In this document: in pieces, positions 16,599 through 31,405 of the stretch
How positions within the stretch are numbered: the first letter of the stretch is position 1
Layout: each line of letters starts with the position of its first letter
Notes under the pieces: model-generated
Told to the model about the DNA's origin: nothing
The model's input: the letters and a program-made list of their open reading frames with translations, nothing else
Database searches by the model: none
Position numbers and translations under genes: made by a program
From: Planctomycetaceae bacterium
GTDB lineage: Bacteria; Planctomycetota; Planctomycetia; Planctomycetales; Planctomycetaceae
Assembly: GCA_002722955.1 (NCBI GenBank)
Contig: PBMZ01000102.1
Location: 62,001-126,000, forward strand
Length of the DNA: 64,000 bases
Direction of reading: 5' to 3'

Positions 16599-17480
16599 AT
16601 GCAAGTTCCCGAAGAACTTTCGCAACTTCAGAAATGGATGCAGGCGGTGGTCACGCACCCCGATGGAATCGTCGCTGGCGTCGACTCTGAAGATGCACGC
16701 TCGGCGATCGCAGTGGACGGGGAAAGTATCGAGACCGTGGTGACTCGATCAGAGTCCCTATCTGCTGTCGGGCGTTTAGCGGTTTACGGCGACGCTTACT
16801 TCGCTCGCCTGTTGGATGTGTTGGCGGAAGAGTATCCGGCTATGGTGCATGCGCTTGGCGAAGAAGCGTTTCAGGGCTTGGCTTTTGTTTATCTTCAGCA
16901 ACACCCGTCGCAATCTTATACGTTAGGCGAATTGGGAAGCCGCTTTCCGGAATTCTTACGGACAACTCGGCCAGAGAACGATGATGCTCAGCGGCCTGAC
17001 TGGGCGGATTTCTTAGCGGACTTGGCCACGGTTGAGCGAACTTATGCCGAAGTTTTTGACGGCCCCGGTGTCGAAGGTCAAGAATTGTTGAAGCCAGATG
17101 ACTTGGCCAGCATCTCCCAAGACGCTTGGCCTGATGTGCGGTTGGAAACGGCGTGCTGTTTACGACTGCTGACATTGGACTTTCCTGCACACGGCTATGC
17201 CACAGCAGTCCGGCGAGAGACCGAGGTCTTGTTTCCCAATCCTCAACCCACGTACTTGGTTGTGAAACGAAGGGATTTCATTGTTCGCCGTGATCCTGTT
17301 GCGCTGGATGAGTACCGATTGCTAGAATCACTCATTCAAGGCAAAACGATTGGCGAGTCGATCGCGGATGTCGCCCAAAGTACAGATTCTGACTTAGACG
17401 AATTCGCCGCGAATTTGCAGAATTGGTTCTTTGAGTGGGCAGAAGCAGGCTACTTCACTGCTATAATTCATCCTGAGTGA
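16599..17480 (+). CDS. DUF2063 / HvfC-BufC N-terminal-domain-like protein (usual partner of DUF692 enzymes)
   Basis: LQKWMQAVVTHPDGI...SAVGRLAVYGDAYFARLLDVLAEEYPAMVHALGEEAFQGLAFVYLQQHPSQSYTLGELGSRFPEFL...WADFLADLATVERTYAEVFDGPG. Confidence 0.8.
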   Translation: MQVPEELSQLQKWMQAVVTHPDGIVAGVDSEDARSAIAVDGESIETVVTRSESLSAVGRLAVYGDAYFARLLDVLAEEYPAMVHALGEEAFQGLAFVYLQQHPSQSYTLGELGSRFPEFLRTTRPENDDAQRPDWADFLADLATVERTYAEVFDGPGVEGQELLKPDDLASISQDAWPDVRLETACCLRLLTLDFPAHGYATAVRRETEVLFPNPQPTYLVVKRRDFIVRRDPVALDEYRLLESLIQGKTIGESIADVAQSTDSDLDEFAANLQNWFFEWAEAGYFTAIIHPE

Positions 17481-23697: not shown

Positions 23698-24434
23698 CGG
23701 TTCGAGAATGCGGCCTGTGTCAGTCCGGCACGATCACTCAACGCCCGAAACTCCTCGACTGTGAAGGCTGCTTGGATCGAGATCGGACCATCGATATGCA
23801 CAACGGGCGAACGAGAAATCAGACGCGGCACATAGTACGCCAGAAAGTACCCGAAACGACTCCGCAGGATGTCGTTGACTAAGACAAGTTGGCGTGTTGC
23901 CGCTGACATCTTTGCCAACAGCGTGACGATGTCGTCTTCGTCCAGGTGGTGCATGAACAAAGTATTGACGATGACATCGAAATCGTCGGGCATGGCGTCG
24001 TTGACCAGATCGAGCTGAAAGAACTCAACTGCTACTCCGTAAGGCTTCGCAACGTCGCGAGAGTGTTGTAGTGCCGTTTCGCTGATGTCGGCGCCATGTA
24101 CTTCGGCTGGGATGCCTCGCTTCTTTGCCGTTAAAGCCAAGCGACACGCGACATCCCCGCCACCGCAGGCGACGTCGAGAATTCGGATTGGTCGGTCTTT
24201 GATCGTGGCCGCGATCTTTCGAATCGGTCGCCACAGCGTCCGCGTTGTTAAGCTGAGCGAATTCGCCAGCCGCAAGACGTCGAGCGCTTCTCGGTGTAAC
24301 GAGTCCTGCAATTCGGGCTGATCCATGATCTCCGGTTGGCGGACTCGTGCGGGCATCTTTCGAAGCGATGGCTTCTGAATCGTGTAGTTGGAAAAGTCGA
24401 TTTCCACCTCAAGAGACCTTTGAATTCGATCCAT
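23658..24434 (-). CDS. Class I SAM-dependent methyltransferase
   Basis: RPIRILDVACGGGDVACRLALTAKKRGIPAEVHGADISETALQHSRDVA; DFDVIVNTLFMHHLDEDD. Confidence 0.85.
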   Translation of the reverse strand: MDRIQRSLEVEIDFSNYTIQKPSLRKMPARVRQPEIMDQPELQDSLHREALDVLRLANSLSLTTRTLWRPIRKIAATIKDRPIRILDVACGGGDVACRLALTAKKRGIPAEVHGADISETALQHSRDVAKPYGVAVEFFQLDLVNDAMPDDFDVIVNTLFMHHLDEDDIVTLLAKMSAATRQLVLVNDILRSRFGYFLAYYVPRLISRSPVVHIDGPISIQAAFTVEEFRALSDRAGLTQAAFSNRWPERFLMEWRKP

Positions 24435-24598
24435 AGTTGGCTGATTGATCAGGCTACCGTCGGATCGAATCGACGTCGAGTGTCACCCAACTGACGACAG
24501 ACAGTTTTTCGTCACCCTTGCCTCGCCAGAACTTGTCGATTGTCACAAGTCGATGACATGCCTTGGTTTAAGGATGCAAGTTTCGGTCGGTTTCGGAA

Positions 24599-24638
24599 TG
24601 GCACTCGGGATGCCAAAGGTGGTCGGAACTCTTGGCAT
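24599..24638. promoter_or_regulatory. Candidate regulatory palindromes upstream of the peptide gene: TGGCA-N7-TGCCA (24599-24615) and ATGCCAA-N15-TTGGCAT (24610-24638)
   Basis: TGGCACTCGGGATGCCA and ATGCCAAAGGTGGTCGGAACTCTTGGCAT read directly; 50-90 nt upstream of ATG 24687. Confidence 0.3.
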
Positions 24639-24686
24639 GGTGTGTGACCAGCTGCGTCCCCGAACCCTTTCATGAAAGGACGACCG

Positions 24687-24824
24687 ATGACCTCGACCAA
24701 GCAAAAGAAGAAGGCGGTCCGAGAGATCGCGAAGCTGCGAACGTCGGATGGCTCGAAGCGAACCGCTGAACGCGGTTTCTGTCGATGCTGCCGTTGTTGT
24801 CGTTGCCGACTGTGTTTTTTCTAA
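24687..24824 (+). CDS. Putative RiPP precursor peptide, 45 aa, Cys/Arg-rich C-terminal core (not in the ORF track)
   Basis: Translation MTSTKQKKKAVREIAKLRTSDGSKRTAERGFCRCCRCCRCRLCFF*; AAAGGA Shine-Dalgarno-like sequence just upstream (catgAAAGGAcgaccgATG); directly upstream of a DUF692/MNIO gene on the same strand. Confidence 0.75.
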   Translation: MTSTKQKKKAVREIAKLRTSDGSKRTAERGFCRCCRCCRCRLCFF

Positions 24825-24850
24825 ACATCAGTCTTTGCTGAAGCCGGCGG

Positions 24851-24877
24851 CTTCGTGATCAAACCGTGTTCACGAAG
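24851..24877 (+). other. Hairpin between precursor and DUF692 gene (8-bp perfect stem), possible attenuator/processing element
   Basis: CTTCGTGA-tcaaaccgtgt-TCACGAAG. Confidence 0.45.
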
Positions 24878-24929
24878 TCGCTTGGCGACGGATTGCGAGT
24901 TTCTCGTCTTGTTGACAAAGGGTTATGAA

Positions 24930-25754
24930 ATGCTTCCCGCTATCGGATATGCCATTCGCGAACAAAATCGAATCGTGTTGGATGATCCAGCAATTAACGC
25001 CGCGGAAATCACCTTTGAGCGAGCTGACGATCCGTTACGGATCGAACGGTACGTTGGTGACTTAGACTTCGATCATGTCAGTGTGCATGCATTGAAGCTG
25101 TCGGTGGCAAGTCCCGAGCCGCCGGCCGAACACTATCTATCGGCTCTAAAGGCGATTGCGGAAGAGAACGGAGCGATCTCCGTTAGCGATCACTTAGGGT
25201 TTACACGAGACAGCGACAACGGTGTCGAGATCGGCCACTTCGCTGCTCCGCCGTATACCGAAGCCGCGCTGACGACAACGTGTCGAAACGTTGACTACAT
25301 CCAAGAATACTTTGGCGGCATTCGATTTTACTTAGAGAACATTGCCTACCTGTTCCGGATGCAAGGCACGATGAGCGAGTCGGAGTTCTTGTCGCGAATT
25401 CTTCGCAATACCGGATGCGGCTGGTTGCTGGATGTGACCAACGTCTACGCCAACGCGACGAACTTCAATTACGACGCTTACAACTTCATCGCCGAAGTGA
25501 TGCCGTACGCCACCGATGTTCAAATTCATTTGGCCGGTGGTTACTTCGACGAACGCGCCGACATGTATGTCGACAGTCACTCGGAGCCAATCCATGACGA
25601 AGTCTGGGACTTGTACAAGTTCTCGCTGGAGGTTGGTGTCGGCAAAATCAATTCCGTCTTTTTGGAACGCGACCAGAACTTTCCCGAGGAAGAAGGTTGG
25701 CGATCCGAGATCCGTCGAACTCGAGAGATTGCCGAAGCTGTTGTCCCCGTCTAA
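24930..25754 (+). CDS. DUF692 family multinuclear iron-dependent oxidative enzyme (MNIO; MbnB/TglH/ChrH/BufB-like)
   Basis: MNIO-like ligand motifs in order: ISVSDHLGFTRD, YLENIAYLF, WLLDVTNVYANATNFNYDAYNF, VQIHLAGGY, MYVDSHSEPIHDEVWDLY, SVFLERDQNFP. Confidence 0.9.
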   Translation: MLPAIGYAIREQNRIVLDDPAINAAEITFERADDPLRIERYVGDLDFDHVSVHALKLSVASPEPPAEHYLSALKAIAEENGAISVSDHLGFTRDSDNGVEIGHFAAPPYTEAALTTTCRNVDYIQEYFGGIRFYLENIAYLFRMQGTMSESEFLSRILRNTGCGWLLDVTNVYANATNFNYDAYNFIAEVMPYATDVQIHLAGGYFDERADMYVDSHSEPIHDEVWDLYKFSLEVGVGKINSVFLERDQNFPEEEGWRSEIRRTREIAEAVVPV

Positions 25755-25774: not shown

Positions 25775-26530
25775 ATGAAAACTGAATCCGTTCAACAAGA
25801 CTACGCCAGTGCGATAAGAGCTTGGGCACATGGAATGGCAACGGCAAAGGTATCGGCCGTGGAATCCAGTCTGGCTCTTGGCGATTCGATGGATCGAGTC
25901 AAGATGTTCGTCGAGGGAAACTATGAGAAACGAATCGACAAACTGCTTCGGCAAGCCGAGTTGCTGGAAGACGTCGTCGATGATCTCGAGGATCGTGTCA
26001 TCTCCTTTATGAAGGAAGTGCCTTTGGGGGCTTACGACACGGGGTGTAGTGATGGCGACCGCTTTCTGGGTTGGTTGCAGGATGTTGGCCAGTTGACTCT
26101 TGAACAAGAGGATCACGTCGAATGTCAGCGAGCTCGACTAAAATTGGAAGATGTCGCGCGAGCAAACCGCGTCGGTCATGTTTGGTTTCAGGACCTTTGG
26201 AGTCTGACAGAAACAGCACTCGACGAATTCGACGTCGATTCGCACGATCGAATTCACCTAAACCCGATTCACGTTGAGACTCGATTCGAAACGACATCGT
26301 TACTTGACGACGATGACGAAGCACCGACGGACGTCGTTGTCTATGCGTGTGAAAACAACATGCGCACGGCAGTCCTCGAACCGATCGCGCAGCGCGTTTG
26401 CGATGTGCTCCGTCAGGATGGTCCGAAATCAATTGACGATTTGAAGGACAAGCTCTTGGAATTCGACAAGGACGAGATATTTGAAGTCTGCCGTGATTCC
26501 GTCGAGATGGGTTTGATGGCACTGGGCTGA
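25775..26530 (+). CDS. MNIO-operon partner protein of unknown family (251 aa; helical N-terminus, winged-helix-like C-terminus)
   Basis: MKTESVQQDYASAIRAWAHGMATAKVSAVESSL...; C-terminus LEPIAQRVCDVLRQDGPKSIDDLKDKLLEFDKDEIFEVCRDSVEMGLM; starts 20 nt after the DUF692 stop. Confidence 0.7.
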   Translation: MKTESVQQDYASAIRAWAHGMATAKVSAVESSLALGDSMDRVKMFVEGNYEKRIDKLLRQAELLEDVVDDLEDRVISFMKEVPLGAYDTGCSDGDRFLGWLQDVGQLTLEQEDHVECQRARLKLEDVARANRVGHVWFQDLWSLTETALDEFDVDSHDRIHLNPIHVETRFETTSLLDDDDEAPTDVVVYACENNMRTAVLEPIAQRVCDVLRQDGPKSIDDLKDKLLEFDKDEIFEVCRDSVEMGLMALG

Positions 26531-26549: not shown

Positions 26550-27467
26550 ATGTCTACAACAAACACAGCCGCGCCCACATGGGATCAATCCCTGTTCGAG
26601 AAATGCGAATTCGATGTTGCGAACGGTGTCGGAGCCAATCAGCTTTGGACACTGTTCCGGCAGCATCGTGGTCGTTTGACTTTGACCTACACGCTGTTCA
26701 ACATCGAGAACCTGCTCCGGCTAGCGCAGCCATTCGTGTTAGGCTTGGCGATCAATGACCTGCTGAATGGGACATACTTCGGACTTGGTCTTTTCATCGT
26801 CCAGCACATTGCCCACTTGACGATTAGCTCGTGTCGCCAAATGTACGACACTCGTGTTTACAGCCAGATGTATACCTCAATGGCAACCAACGTGATCGTC
26901 GAACAGCGAAGTCGCGACGTGAACGTTTCAGCGGTCGCCGCCAGATCGGCACTTTCCAGGCAGTTCATCGAGTTCTTTGAGCGATCCGTGCCGCTCACGA
27001 TTCGATCTGCCTATTCGATTGTCGGCGCGTTGATCATGCTGACGATTTACGACCCGATGTTGCTGCCGCTGTGTCTTGTGTTGTTGATTCCCGCCGCATT
27101 GATCAATCGAGTTTACGCAAGGCAAGTGTTTCGCTTGAGCGGCGGTCTACACGACACGCTGGAAAACGAAGTTGATGTGATCGAGCCCGGCAGCCGGTCT
27201 CAAGTTCGCGAGCACTTCGCAACCGCCGCAGGATGGCGGATCAAGCTATCGGACACCGAGGCGATCAACTTCTGTTTGATGGAATTGTTCGTGCTCTCGG
27301 TGATGGTTGCCGCGCTGTTGAGAATCTGTGATCCAGCGACAGTCACAGCGGGAGCGATCTTCGCGGTGTTTCGTTACGCGTTGATGTTGATCATGGGATT
27401 GGATGCCGTACCAAGGCTGGTCCAACAAATCAGTCAACTACGTGAACTCAAACGCCGGCTGGCTTAA
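26550..27467 (+). CDS. Stand-alone six-TM ABC-transporter membrane domain protein (ABC_membrane_3-like), no nucleotide-binding domain
   Basis: NGVGANQLWTLFRQHRGRLTLTYTLFNIENLLRLAQPFVLGLAINDLLNG...; about six hydrophobic segments; no Walker A/LSGGQ in 305 aa; next same-strand gene is not an ATPase. Confidence 0.75.
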   Translation: MSTTNTAAPTWDQSLFEKCEFDVANGVGANQLWTLFRQHRGRLTLTYTLFNIENLLRLAQPFVLGLAINDLLNGTYFGLGLFIVQHIAHLTISSCRQMYDTRVYSQMYTSMATNVIVEQRSRDVNVSAVAARSALSRQFIEFFERSVPLTIRSAYSIVGALIMLTIYDPMLLPLCLVLLIPAALINRVYARQVFRLSGGLHDTLENEVDVIEPGSRSQVREHFATAAGWRIKLSDTEAINFCLMELFVLSVMVAALLRICDPATVTAGAIFAVFRYALMLIMGLDAVPRLVQQISQLRELKRRLA

Positions 27468-28457: not shown

Positions 28458-30449
28458 ATGGCATCTGAAGTTCAACAAGTGTCCGAACAAGCGATCGACG
28501 AAATCGAAGAGCTATTGCGCGAGTTGGCGGTTTTGGCTCAGTCGGATGTGTCGTCGAATCACTTTCATGGGGATTTGTTGTCTCGGACGGTTCAATCATT
28601 GGCGGCGTTGGCAGGGGCGATTTGGCTGATCGATGGCGACAGTGGTGACGTGCTGATCGAGACGGAACAGAACTTATCCGCCGTGCTCGACTCAGAGGCG
28701 CAATCAGCACAGCACCAGCAACTGCTGATGTGGAGCACTCAACAGAGCGAGCCCAGGGCGATTCTGCCGCAATCCAATTCGCCAGTTACGAATCCCACCG
28801 ACTGTTTACTCCTGCTGGCTCCGATCACCGTCGACGATCGGACAGTTGGAGTGATCGAGGTTTTCCAACGCAGCGAAGCATCGCCGGCAGCTCAAGCGGG
28901 CTTTTTACGATTCTTGACGGCGATTAGCGAGCTGGCTTCGGACTATCAACGACACGATCAATTGCGCAGCTTCAAAGATCGCGCCGAATCGTGGGGGCAG
29001 TTCGAGCAGTTCTCGGAACAGATCCATCAGGACTTGGACTTGGATGGAACGGCCTTTCGAGTAGCCAACGATGGACGCGTGCTGGTTGATTGCGAACGTC
29101 TTTCCGTCGGTCTGATTCACGCGGGGCGCCGTGCCAAGATCCTGGCCGTAAGCGGGCTCGACATTGTTGATCGGCGATCGAATAGTGTGCGGCGATTGGA
29201 ACAATTGATAAAGCAAGTTATTCGCGGCGGCGAGCCGCTGTGGTACTTCGATCAAGCCGCTGAACTCGCACCGCAAATCCAAAAGCCGCTCGACGCGTAC
29301 TTAGATGAATCCAAGGCGCGGCTGCTGGCCGTGTTGCCGCTTTATCGAACGTCTCGAAATACCGGTTCGAAAGAAGCCTTCGCCGCGATCGTGATCGAAC
29401 GTTTCGAAAGAGTCCAAGCCGACGACTTGTTCCGGCAGCGAGCCGAATCCGTGCGACGGCAAAGTGAATTGGCGCTGGCCAACGCCGTTCAATACAGCTC
29501 GCTACCGATGCTGTGGCTTGTGAATCTGTTGGCTCGACTGAAGTGGTACACACGCTTAAGGCAGTTACCGCGGACTCTGTTCGTGCTGGCAGTCATCAGT
29601 GCGATCATCTGGGCCGCGGTGTTTGTGAAGACTGACTTCGTGATTGAAGGCTACGGTGAACTGCAACCAGAAATCCAGCGAGAGATCTTTGCTCCGCATG
29701 ATGGCATTGTGAGTGAGCTGCCGGCAGTGCACTCGTTGGATGTCAGCCAAAACGAGACGCTCATTCAACTGACGAATGCCGACTTGGCCGTCGAATACAC
29801 GCGCGTGCTCGGCGAGATTGACGTGGTCGATCAACGTACAACTTCGATCAACACCGAGTTGCTTGGGCTACGGCAACGAAATGACCCAATGAGTGCGCAG
29901 CGAGAATCTCAACTGATCGCCGAGCAGCGCGAATTGGACAAAAAACTGGTGAGCTTGAAGAAACAACGCGATTTGATCGATGAGCAGCGTGGGCAATTGG
30001 AGTTGAAGAGTCCGATTGATGGGCGTGTTTTGACTTGGAAAGTTGCTCAACGTTTGGCGAATCGACCGGTTTCGCGCGGTGTCTCGCTGTTGAAGATCGC
30101 CAAATTGGATGGAAACTGGCTATTAGAGATTCGAGTTGCCGATGAGGATATTGGGCACGTAATGAATGCCCGCAAGGCCATCAAACCCGATCTGGATGTT
30201 TCGTTCGTCTCGGCAACAAATCCAGGGGTGACACACTACGGCACAATCTTGAAGGTGGCCAACTCGACTCAACTTGACGATTCCTTGGGGCCGTCCGTTC
30301 TTGTGACCGTCAAAATCGATCCAACCAAAATCAAACACCTGCGTCCCGGTGCTTCCGTAATCCCCAAAATCCATTGTGGTCAGGAGGCGATCGGTTATGT
30401 TTGGCTTCGGGAGTTGATCGAAGCGGTGCAGAAGCGAATACTATTCTAA
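28458..30449 (+). CDS. HlyD-type efflux adaptor with GAF-like N-terminal cytoplasmic region
   Basis: N-terminal LAALAGAIWLIDGDSGDVLIE...CLLLLAPITVDDRTVGVIEVFQRSE; TM at ~aa 375 (LFVLAVISAIIWAAVFV); then EIFAPHDGIVSELPAVHSLDVSQNETLIQL...LKSPIDGRVLTW...VSRGVSLLKIAKLDGNWLLEI. Confidence 0.8.
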   Translation: MASEVQQVSEQAIDEIEELLRELAVLAQSDVSSNHFHGDLLSRTVQSLAALAGAIWLIDGDSGDVLIETEQNLSAVLDSEAQSAQHQQLLMWSTQQSEPRAILPQSNSPVTNPTDCLLLLAPITVDDRTVGVIEVFQRSEASPAAQAGFLRFLTAISELASDYQRHDQLRSFKDRAESWGQFEQFSEQIHQDLDLDGTAFRVANDGRVLVDCERLSVGLIHAGRRAKILAVSGLDIVDRRSNSVRRLEQLIKQVIRGGEPLWYFDQAAELAPQIQKPLDAYLDESKARLLAVLPLYRTSRNTGSKEAFAAIVIERFERVQADDLFRQRAESVRRQSELALANAVQYSSLPMLWLVNLLARLKWYTRLRQLPRTLFVLAVISAIIWAAVFVKTDFVIEGYGELQPEIQREIFAPHDGIVSELPAVHSLDVSQNETLIQLTNADLAVEYTRVLGEIDVVDQRTTSINTELLGLRQRNDPMSAQRESQLIAEQRELDKKLVSLKKQRDLIDEQRGQLELKSPIDGRVLTWKVAQRLANRPVSRGVSLLKIAKLDGNWLLEIRVADEDIGHVMNARKAIKPDLDVSFVSATNPGVTHYGTILKVANSTQLDDSLGPSVLVTVKIDPTKIKHLRPGASVIPKIHCGQEAIGYVWLRELIEAVQKRILF

Positions 30450-30493: not shown

Positions 30494-31405
30494 ATGTCTC
30501 TGACTGCCTTACTTCTTGCGGCCGCGCTGAACCAGCAGCCTTTAGACTCGAACGAAATCCCAGTCGAAAAGGCGTTGCTGACGATCATCGACGCCGTCAC
30601 TGTCGCGCCGACGGAGTCGGGAAAGCTGACGAAGGTCAGCGTCTCCGAAGGTGACATCGTCCGCAAGGGCACTTTGCTTGGGCAGCTTGACGATGAGATC
30701 GAGCGTTTAGAGTTGCAACGAGCCGCGACGGATCTGGACATCGCTAAAGAGCAAGCGGAAAACGATGTGCAAATCCGGTATGCGCGCAAGGCGTCGCAAG
30801 TTGCCGACGTCGAGTTGGAGCGGGCCAAGGAATCCAACGATCGAGTCAACAACGCGGTGACTCAAACCGAACTGGACAGTCTGCGATTGCTGTCGGAAAA
30901 GGCGAAATTGGAAATTGAGCAAGCGGAATTCGAACAACGCACTGCCAAGCTGGGCCTCAAGTTAAAAGCCAACGCTCTTGATGCCGCTCGTGTCAAAGTC
31001 GCTCGCCGAAAGATCACGTCGCCAATCGCCGGAGTGGTCGTCGAAATCAACCACCGGGCGGGTGAAGCTGTGGATACTCAGTCCAACGCATTTCGAATTC
31101 TCAACACGTCAAAGTTGCGGGCCGAGTTTCGCTTGCGAGCTTCCATGGCCAGCTTCAGTCTGAAAGGGCGTCCGGTCAAGCTGCTGACTCGCATCGCGGG
31201 AAACAAGGAGACCGAGTTCCGCGGTCGAGTTGTGTTCGTCAGCCCGGAAATCAACGCGTTGAATGGCATGGTTCGTGTCTGGGCGGAAATCGATAATCCC
31301 GATGGCTTGCTGAGGCCAGGAATTGAAGTGCCAATCACCATCATGCCCGACGGTGAAGCGACCGCTCAAAGGCCGAATTCCAAAAAAGAGGAATCCGCAC
31401 GCTAA
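30494..31405 (+). CDS. HlyD/RND efflux periplasmic adaptor subunit
   Basis: VTVAPTESGKLTKVSVSEGDIVRKGTLLGQLDDEIERLELQRA; ARRKITSPIAGVVVEINHRAGEAVDTQSNAFRILNTSKLRAEF. Confidence 0.85.
   Translation: MSLTALLLAAALNQQPLDSNEIPVEKALLTIIDAVTVAPTESGKLTKVSVSEGDIVRKGTLLGQLDDEIERLELQRAATDLDIAKEQAENDVQIRYARKASQVADVELERAKESNDRVNNAVTQTELDSLRLLSEKAKLEIEQAEFEQRTAKLGLKLKANALDAARVKVARRKITSPIAGVVVEINHRAGEAVDTQSNAFRILNTSKLRAEFRLRASMASFSLKGRPVKLLTRIAGNKETEFRGRVVFVSPEINALNGMVRVWAEIDNPDGLLRPGIEVPITIMPDGEATAQRPNSKKEESAR

Follow-up and report, generated by a model that had tools for sequence, protein, structure and literature searches.

Four genes lie on the plus strand of the window (the whole stretch of 64,000 nucleotides analysed here) in the order peptide, MNIO, partner protein and ABC exporter membrane domain. 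The features of this cassette are as follows.

24675-24680, plus strand: Shine-Dalgarno-like AAAGGA, 6 nt 5' of the ATG, read from the sequence
24687-24824, plus strand: putative precursor peptide gene, 45 aa, with the stop codon TAA at 24822-24824, identified from homologs, profile matches and codon pattern
24717-24743, plus strand: leader motif V-R-E-I-A-K-L-R-T (VREL..LRT in the family), presumed to be recognised by the RRE-like partner
24780-24821, plus strand: Cys/Arg repeat core CRCCRCCRCRLCFF ((CCR)2-4 in the family), with conserved positions and mixed codons
24843-24888, plus strand: stable RNA hairpin in the gap between precursor and MNIO, z = -3.5 to -3.8 against shuffles
24930-25754, plus strand: MNIO (DUF692, PF05114) enzyme, 274 aa, PF05114 E 6.7e-54, 183 bits against a cut-off of 25
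25775-26530, plus strand: predicted MNIO partner, PME-type-2-like, with a helical domain and an RRE-like winged-helix domain, 251 aa, from an AlphaFold model and Foldseek
26550-27467, plus strand: ABC exporter transmembrane domain without a nucleotide-binding domain (PF13748), 305 aa, PF13748 E 5.4e-50

No protease is encoded in the cassette. Genes for a methyltransferase, an FAD reductase, FwdC and HlyD were considered as further components and rejected, as they are not conserved across the related loci. Just past the FwdC-like gene lie a GAF-HlyD fusion (28458-30449, plus strand) and a second HlyD/RND adaptor (30494-31405, plus strand), neither of which is conserved with the cassette.

The peptide gene translates as MTSTKQKKKAVREIAKLRTSDGSKRTAERGFCRCCRCCRCRLCFF*, exactly where an earlier note on this DNA had placed an open reading frame. 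AGGA-type sites precede most of the homologous precursors whose upstream sequences were compared, and because a second in-frame ATG at 24672 overlaps the AAAGGA of the window, 24687 is the likelier start. With the window peptide as the sole query, approximately 32 homologous short ORFs were retrieved (E < 1e-3) from 170 genomes of the same family, of which 30 were matched by the peptide profile at E ≤ 1e-4; in a phylum-wide draw the peptide occurs in five of 392 genomes, one of these belonging to another family of the same class. A further match (L073, E 0.004), which overlaps a long ORF but is read in a different frame, was treated as chance. Third codon positions take most of the substitutions between close precursor homologs, with 16 synonymous and two nonsynonymous codon changes between L096 and L101, and 11 and one respectively between L084 and L096. 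A non-coding substitution pattern had been named in the earlier note as evidence that would overturn the frame; the comparison was run and, with changes mostly synonymous, the coding status is borne out. Furthermore, the repeats use a mixture of codons for Cys (TGC/TGT) and for Arg (CGN and a few AGA), which implies that the repeats are kept by selection rather than being the product of recent DNA slippage. The interval 24687-24824 is a real gene, conserved and under amino-acid selection, and its case suggests that short precursor genes may escape surveys built on annotated ORFs.

The PF05114 match and a full set of predicted iron ligands identify the product of the second gene as an MNIO enzyme (MbnB_TglH_ChrH). 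Alignment to PDB entries 8hci and 7dz9 places H53, H88, E136, D168, N171, H200, D215, H217 and E246 at the positions of the TglH iron ligands His71, His107, Glu151, Asp184, Asn187, His216, Asp229, His231 and Glu258 (PMC10880893); all nine positions are invariant across 31 MNIO sequences of the clade, and the active site is intact. Among NCBIfam models, BufB (152 bits) and HvfB score best, with ApyH, MbnB and ChrH behind. A scan of GTDB genomes with the MNIO alignment identified 39 Planctomycetota loci (L074-L112) at 58-76% MNIO identity; identity then falls straight to 36% in Verrucomicrobiota (L113-L116). The planctomycete sequences group together in the MNIO tree with support of 100/100. Three MNIOs that are 43-47% identical to the window enzyme (L121 in G449, L117 in G393 and L118 in G087) fall between this clade and the remaining MNIOs; no recognisable Cys/Arg precursor lies upstream of them.

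No Pfam family matched the partner protein and a sequence search of the PDB returned no homolog for it, its relationships being visible by fold search only. When the AlphaFold2 model (pLDDT 91, pTM 0.82) was compared by Foldseek with 350,542 PDB chains, the sole match at E < 1e-3 was TglI (8hci_A, 6.5e-5; 8hi7_A, 3.2e-4), followed by NGO1945 (3dee, 0.01) and, in fourth place, MbnC (7dz9_C, 0.36), all three of which are MNIO partners, known or proposed. The modelled fold agrees with 'PME-type 2' as defined in the survey of Antoine et al. (PMC12452194), and on the strength of this model the protein is a predicted member of that type: it lacks the DUF2063 signature, its fold resembles those of TglI and NGO1945, and it is encoded right after the MNIO. 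A partner gene is present at 38 of the 39 Planctomycetota MNIO loci, L095 being the one without. The ABC subunit, the model of which (pLDDT 77) resembles the membrane half of MsbA/TAP/TmrAB-type exporters, is found at 23 of the 39, some copies being truncated.

Partner homologs were also encountered at L071 (9259-10827, in G291) and L072 (8938-9621, in G024), the former together with a homolog of the ABC subunit. No MNIO relative was detected near either, and these proteins may work with a different enzyme or be left over from a lost system. Within the window itself, 16599-17480 (plus strand) encodes a DUF2063/HvfC-like protein, a PME-type 1 partner, which adjoins an MsrB-like lipoprotein gene with no MNIO alongside; it is the sole DUF2063 match of a genome with three MNIO genes (C1, C123 and C102).

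Across 29 aligned homologs of the peptide, the leader does not vary at Arg12, Glu13 and Arg18 and hardly varies at L17 and T19, and the core does not vary at C32, R33, C34, C35 and R36. The core of the family takes the form R-(CCR)2-4, then C plus R, W or F, or else GGR; that of the window, F-C-R-CC-R-CC-R-C-R-L-C-F-F, is a divergent member in which the first unit has one Cys only. The triplet array described in the earlier note is recovered, with the qualification that the family unit is better read as CCR (R-CCR-CCR-CCR-C) than as CRC. The expectation that Cys spacing would prove invariant while the leader drifts holds in its first half for the main group, where C-R-C-C-R is constant, but not in its second, as Arg12-Glu13 and Arg18 are also invariant and divergent members keep the leader motif while the spacing shifts to 4 or 6. 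Nine Lys/Arg are indeed found among residues 1-25 of the window peptide, but an unusually basic leader is not a trait of the family, given Lys/Arg contents of 2/33 in L107, 4/29 in L108 and 5/28 in L103; nor is the terminal LCFF upheld as a recognition end, as homologs finish in RW, CW, GGR, RR, FF or KKK. The boundary drawn between leader and core is not borne out by evidence of cleavage. By contrast, the absence of a signal peptide, set against bufferins in the same note, is confirmed, no hydrophobic stretch being visible by eye at the N-terminus of the window peptide or of 28 aligned homologs.

The leader motif is also retained in the more divergent precursors (L103, L106, L107 and L108), at which the repeat itself changes. 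The cores of L106 (RCCRYCRSCRSCYSCRSCRSCRSCRSCGCH) and L103 (CRGCRRCRSCRRCRRCRC) are of a CRS/CRR type with a period of 3, that of L107 from Gemmata sp. IIL30 (SCRRGCSRGCNRGCRRGCNRGCRRGCHRNCRRS) is of a CxRG type with a period of 4, and that of L108 is (LERCGR)7, in which Ala stands in place of one Cys, with a period of 6. Among the related loci, the Gemmata sp. IIL30 record (HG799477.1) alone is not labelled a metagenome assembly. The constancy of the leader motif while the repeats change implies that, at depth, the motif is better conserved than the spacing of the Cys residues. Cys and Arg are kept in the repeats by every core variant found, and the element common to all repeat types is an Arg no more than two residues from nearly every core Cys. 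The substrate grammar is very simple: a fixed leader motif and Cys/Arg repeats varying in period and number.

The association between the peptide and the MNIO extends across genomes. A precursor lies upstream of the MNIO at 31 of the 39 Planctomycetota loci, and among the 170 same-family genomes the peptide is found in 30, the MNIO in 34 and both in 28, leaving two and six discordant (Fisher p 6e-24, a value that overstates independence because the genomes tested are related). Four genomes (G266, G257, G427 and G428) have the operon without an adjacent precursor and instead carry one or two precursors on separate contigs; the link between peptide and MNIO is therefore no side effect of gene order, and in these cases the enzyme would act in trans. 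In G436, three tandem precursors stand ahead of one MNIO. For L095, L098, L105 and L104 (the last at a contig edge), no precursor was found near the MNIO and none was traced elsewhere in the genome.

Unlinked precursor copies of genus g7 (L055, L057 and L059) are located near a GAF histidine kinase, beside which lies a SpoIIE-domain response regulator in L055, while in L059 a Fic-domain gene stands in between. A regulatory link of these copies to the histidine kinase is possible. No common function emerges from the neighbours of the unlinked precursors, which include histidine kinase/response regulator, Fic, MatE and Omp85 genes.

Two peptide-bearing draft genomes, G475 and G476 (96% and 87% complete), have no MNIO at the threshold used. 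Their peptides, MSATTKIPKKVVTQLSALRTEDPRRKKADRHRCDRCCRCSRCW and a near copy, have the leader VTQLSALRT and the cores RCDRCCRCSRCW and RCGRCCRCSRCW, and have lost several Cys of the core as well as the Arg-Glu that is otherwise invariant in the leader. That the matches L064 and L066 were spurious was considered and rejected, as they are degenerate family members. The degenerate peptides in G475 and G476 amount to a small natural experiment favouring a link between enzyme and substrate.

These distributions bear on whether the peptide is modified at all. It could be an unmodified, metallothionein-like metal chelator, with the MNIO acting on something else and merely co-inherited. The density of C-C and C-x-C spacing seen in the core is typical of metal-thiolate clusters, and free thiols bind metal without an enzyme. 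However, chelation leaves the invariance of the leader motif unexplained, and the co-occurrence with one MNIO clade in 28 genomes, together with the degeneration of the peptides where no MNIO was detected, argues against this explanation, as does the observation, in the MNIO survey (PMC12452194), that MNIO substrates are usually encoded immediately 5' of the enzyme. It is regarded as highly improbable.

Instead, a short gene with a conserved leader motif and a variable core, beside a modification enzyme and a recognition element, is found here, as would be predicted of a RiPP precursor. The peptide is considered, with a probability of roughly 0.85, to be the substrate of a RiPP pathway in which the leader docks on the RRE-like partner and the MNIO oxidatively modifies the repeat cysteines; the repeated per-Cys modification envisaged in the earlier note is in keeping with the MNIO enzyme and the RRE-type partner encoded alongside. 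The peptide is very probably the raw material of a new peptide natural product, which perhaps binds metal.

Docking of the leader and feeding of the repeats through the MNIO are proposed by analogy with MbnABC, in which MbnC binds the leader and a Cys of the core serves as a ligand to the iron cluster (PMC8888699). The motif VRExxxLRT would dock on the partner (25775-26530) at its RRE-like domain, bringing the Cys/Arg repeat at the C-terminus up to the multi-iron centre of the MNIO (24930-25754), which would oxidise cysteines repeat after repeat. The chemistry is most likely of the four-electron Cys type of bufferin and methanobactin MNIOs, giving thiooxazole or oxazolone-thioamide groups; this, along with copper chelation, is favoured because BufB and HvfB are the best-scoring MNIO families. 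The product would be a short polycationic peptide rich in sulfur heterocycles, probably a soft-metal (copper) ligand. It may be exported by the ABC subunit, which has no nucleotide-binding domain, in combination with an ATPase encoded elsewhere, although export is the weaker part of this proposal because several loci lack the subunit and the cassette encodes no protease. According to the MNIO survey, precursors without a signal peptide go with non-DUF2063 partners (PMC12452194), a correlation that the signal-less precursor and PME-type-2-like partner described here fit.

A serious alternative to Cys heterocycles is that the peptide is modified by different chemistry, for example cross-linking of Cys to Arg or to another Cys, C-beta excision or oxidation of Arg, and serves a purpose other than metal handling. 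To our knowledge, no characterised MNIO substrate family requires Arg close to the core Cys, and the proximity of Arg to almost every core Cys, two residues away at most whatever the repeat type, would be consistent with such chemistry, although Arg could merely supply charge and solubility. Similarly, the nearest fold to that of the partner is TglI, which belongs to a C-beta-excising system, and MNIO chemistry is known to diversify (PMC12452194), yet the NCBIfam scores of BufB and HvfB exceed those of ApyH, MbnB and ChrH. Other chemistry of this kind is a real possibility, though less likely than oxidation of the repeat cysteines to thiooxazole-type groups.

The hairpin downstream of the precursor has counterparts at related loci, with z < -2 in 22 of 31 homologous gaps between precursor and MNIO, as opposed to 7% of random windows; no Rfam match was found in 24400-25000. 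The position of a run of Cys/Arg codons directly 5' of a stable hairpin, itself before the MNIO gene, would suit a regulatory leader peptide, or attenuator, in which ribosome stalling at these codons senses charged tRNA and controls the hairpin and the expression of the MNIO operon. Such a role does not accord with the precursors unlinked to any MNIO gene in G266, G257, G427 and G428, nor with the three tandem copies before one MNIO in G436. The N-terminal motif VREL..LRT is, moreover, kept at the amino-acid level through synonymous codon change, the core can turn into (LERCGR)7 or (CxRG)n, and similar structure is present in the gaps between MNIO and partner. Attenuation is hence the least probable of the explanations considered, and a very remote one. 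The MNIO-partner gaps are comparably structured in general, and those of L084-L093, L101 and L110 form very stable RNA (z down to -8.9), as strong as that following the precursors; because of this, no specific role is claimed for the hairpin, including that of a stoichiometry device.

Considered as a RiPP system, the cassette shares features with several that are known. The TglA-TglH-TglI system of Pseudomonas syringae (3-thiaglutamate/pearlin) likewise has a leader without a signal peptide, the same MNIO iron ligands and, in TglI, a partner with an N-terminal helical domain and a C-terminal RRE (8hci_A, the best Foldseek match). However, TglA is a reusable scaffold with one tRNA-appended C-terminal Cys, whereas several Cys are encoded here within a Cys/Arg repeat, and the conserved cassette has no gene for a tRNA-dependent Cys addition enzyme. 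Bufferins (Buf1/Buf2) and Buf_EGKCG/oxazolins also combine an MNIO and an RRE-bearing partner with several Cys per precursor, the window MNIO scores best against BufB, and the repeated K/R-C-G motifs of oxazolins resemble the (LERCGR)7 core of L108. In contrast to bufferins, the core differs, no Sec signal peptide is apparent by eye in the window peptide and 28 aligned homologs, no DUF2063 (PME-type 1) partner lies beside the MNIO of the cassette, and the BufB score of 152 bits falls far below the cut-off of 310. Methanobactins (MbnABC) have a similarly short, basic, signal-less leader, a Cys core and an RRE-like partner for the leader, but the core here is a Cys/Arg tandem repeat, the match to MbnB is weak (46 bits against a cut-off of 325) and there is no MbnC family match.

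The PME-type-2-associated 'adjamnio' precursors, as presented by Antoine et al. 2025 (PMC12452194), are also signal-less, contain Cys and lie beside an MNIO, some with a PME-type-2 partner; members of their clusters I and IV are 119-293 aa in length, whereas most members here are 39-45 aa. The signal-less precursor clusters described in the main text of that survey have other lengths and motifs, and no Planctomycetota Cys/Arg repeat family is named in it (PMC12452194). No NCBIfam or Pfam model matched the peptide. In the literature searched, neither of the core strings CRCCRC and CCRCCR was found as a described peptide, and the work joining MNIO with Planctomycetota concerns ChrH-like enzymes. 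The precursor family and its core grammar are apparently new, within the MNIO RiPPs.

A more speculative proposal, put forward tentatively, is that one leader motif and one Planctomycetota-specific enzyme lineage iteratively process Cys/Arg repeats of changing period (3, 4 and 6), including adjacent Cys-Cys, to give contiguous modified Cys or Cys-Arg-derived groups unseen in known MNIO products, and thereby a modular, repeat-programmable metallophore. The compactness of this branch, with three to four genes and a simple grammar, would make it a natural system for MNIO walking along repeats and for double modification of adjacent Cys. New peptide chemistry is at present coming from MNIO enzymes at one of the highest rates of any source, and the cassette family would open a way into metal handling in planctomycetes, a group in which peptides of this type have received little attention.

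At the far end of the window, an open frame of at least 7567 aa, starting MLFSSWLRSLRNRIAVSRSF, extends from 41298 to 63998 on the plus strand and runs off the window end; it is repeat-rich and encodes a giant repetitive protein. The many long minus-strand ORFs within 41298-63998 are shadows of this frame.
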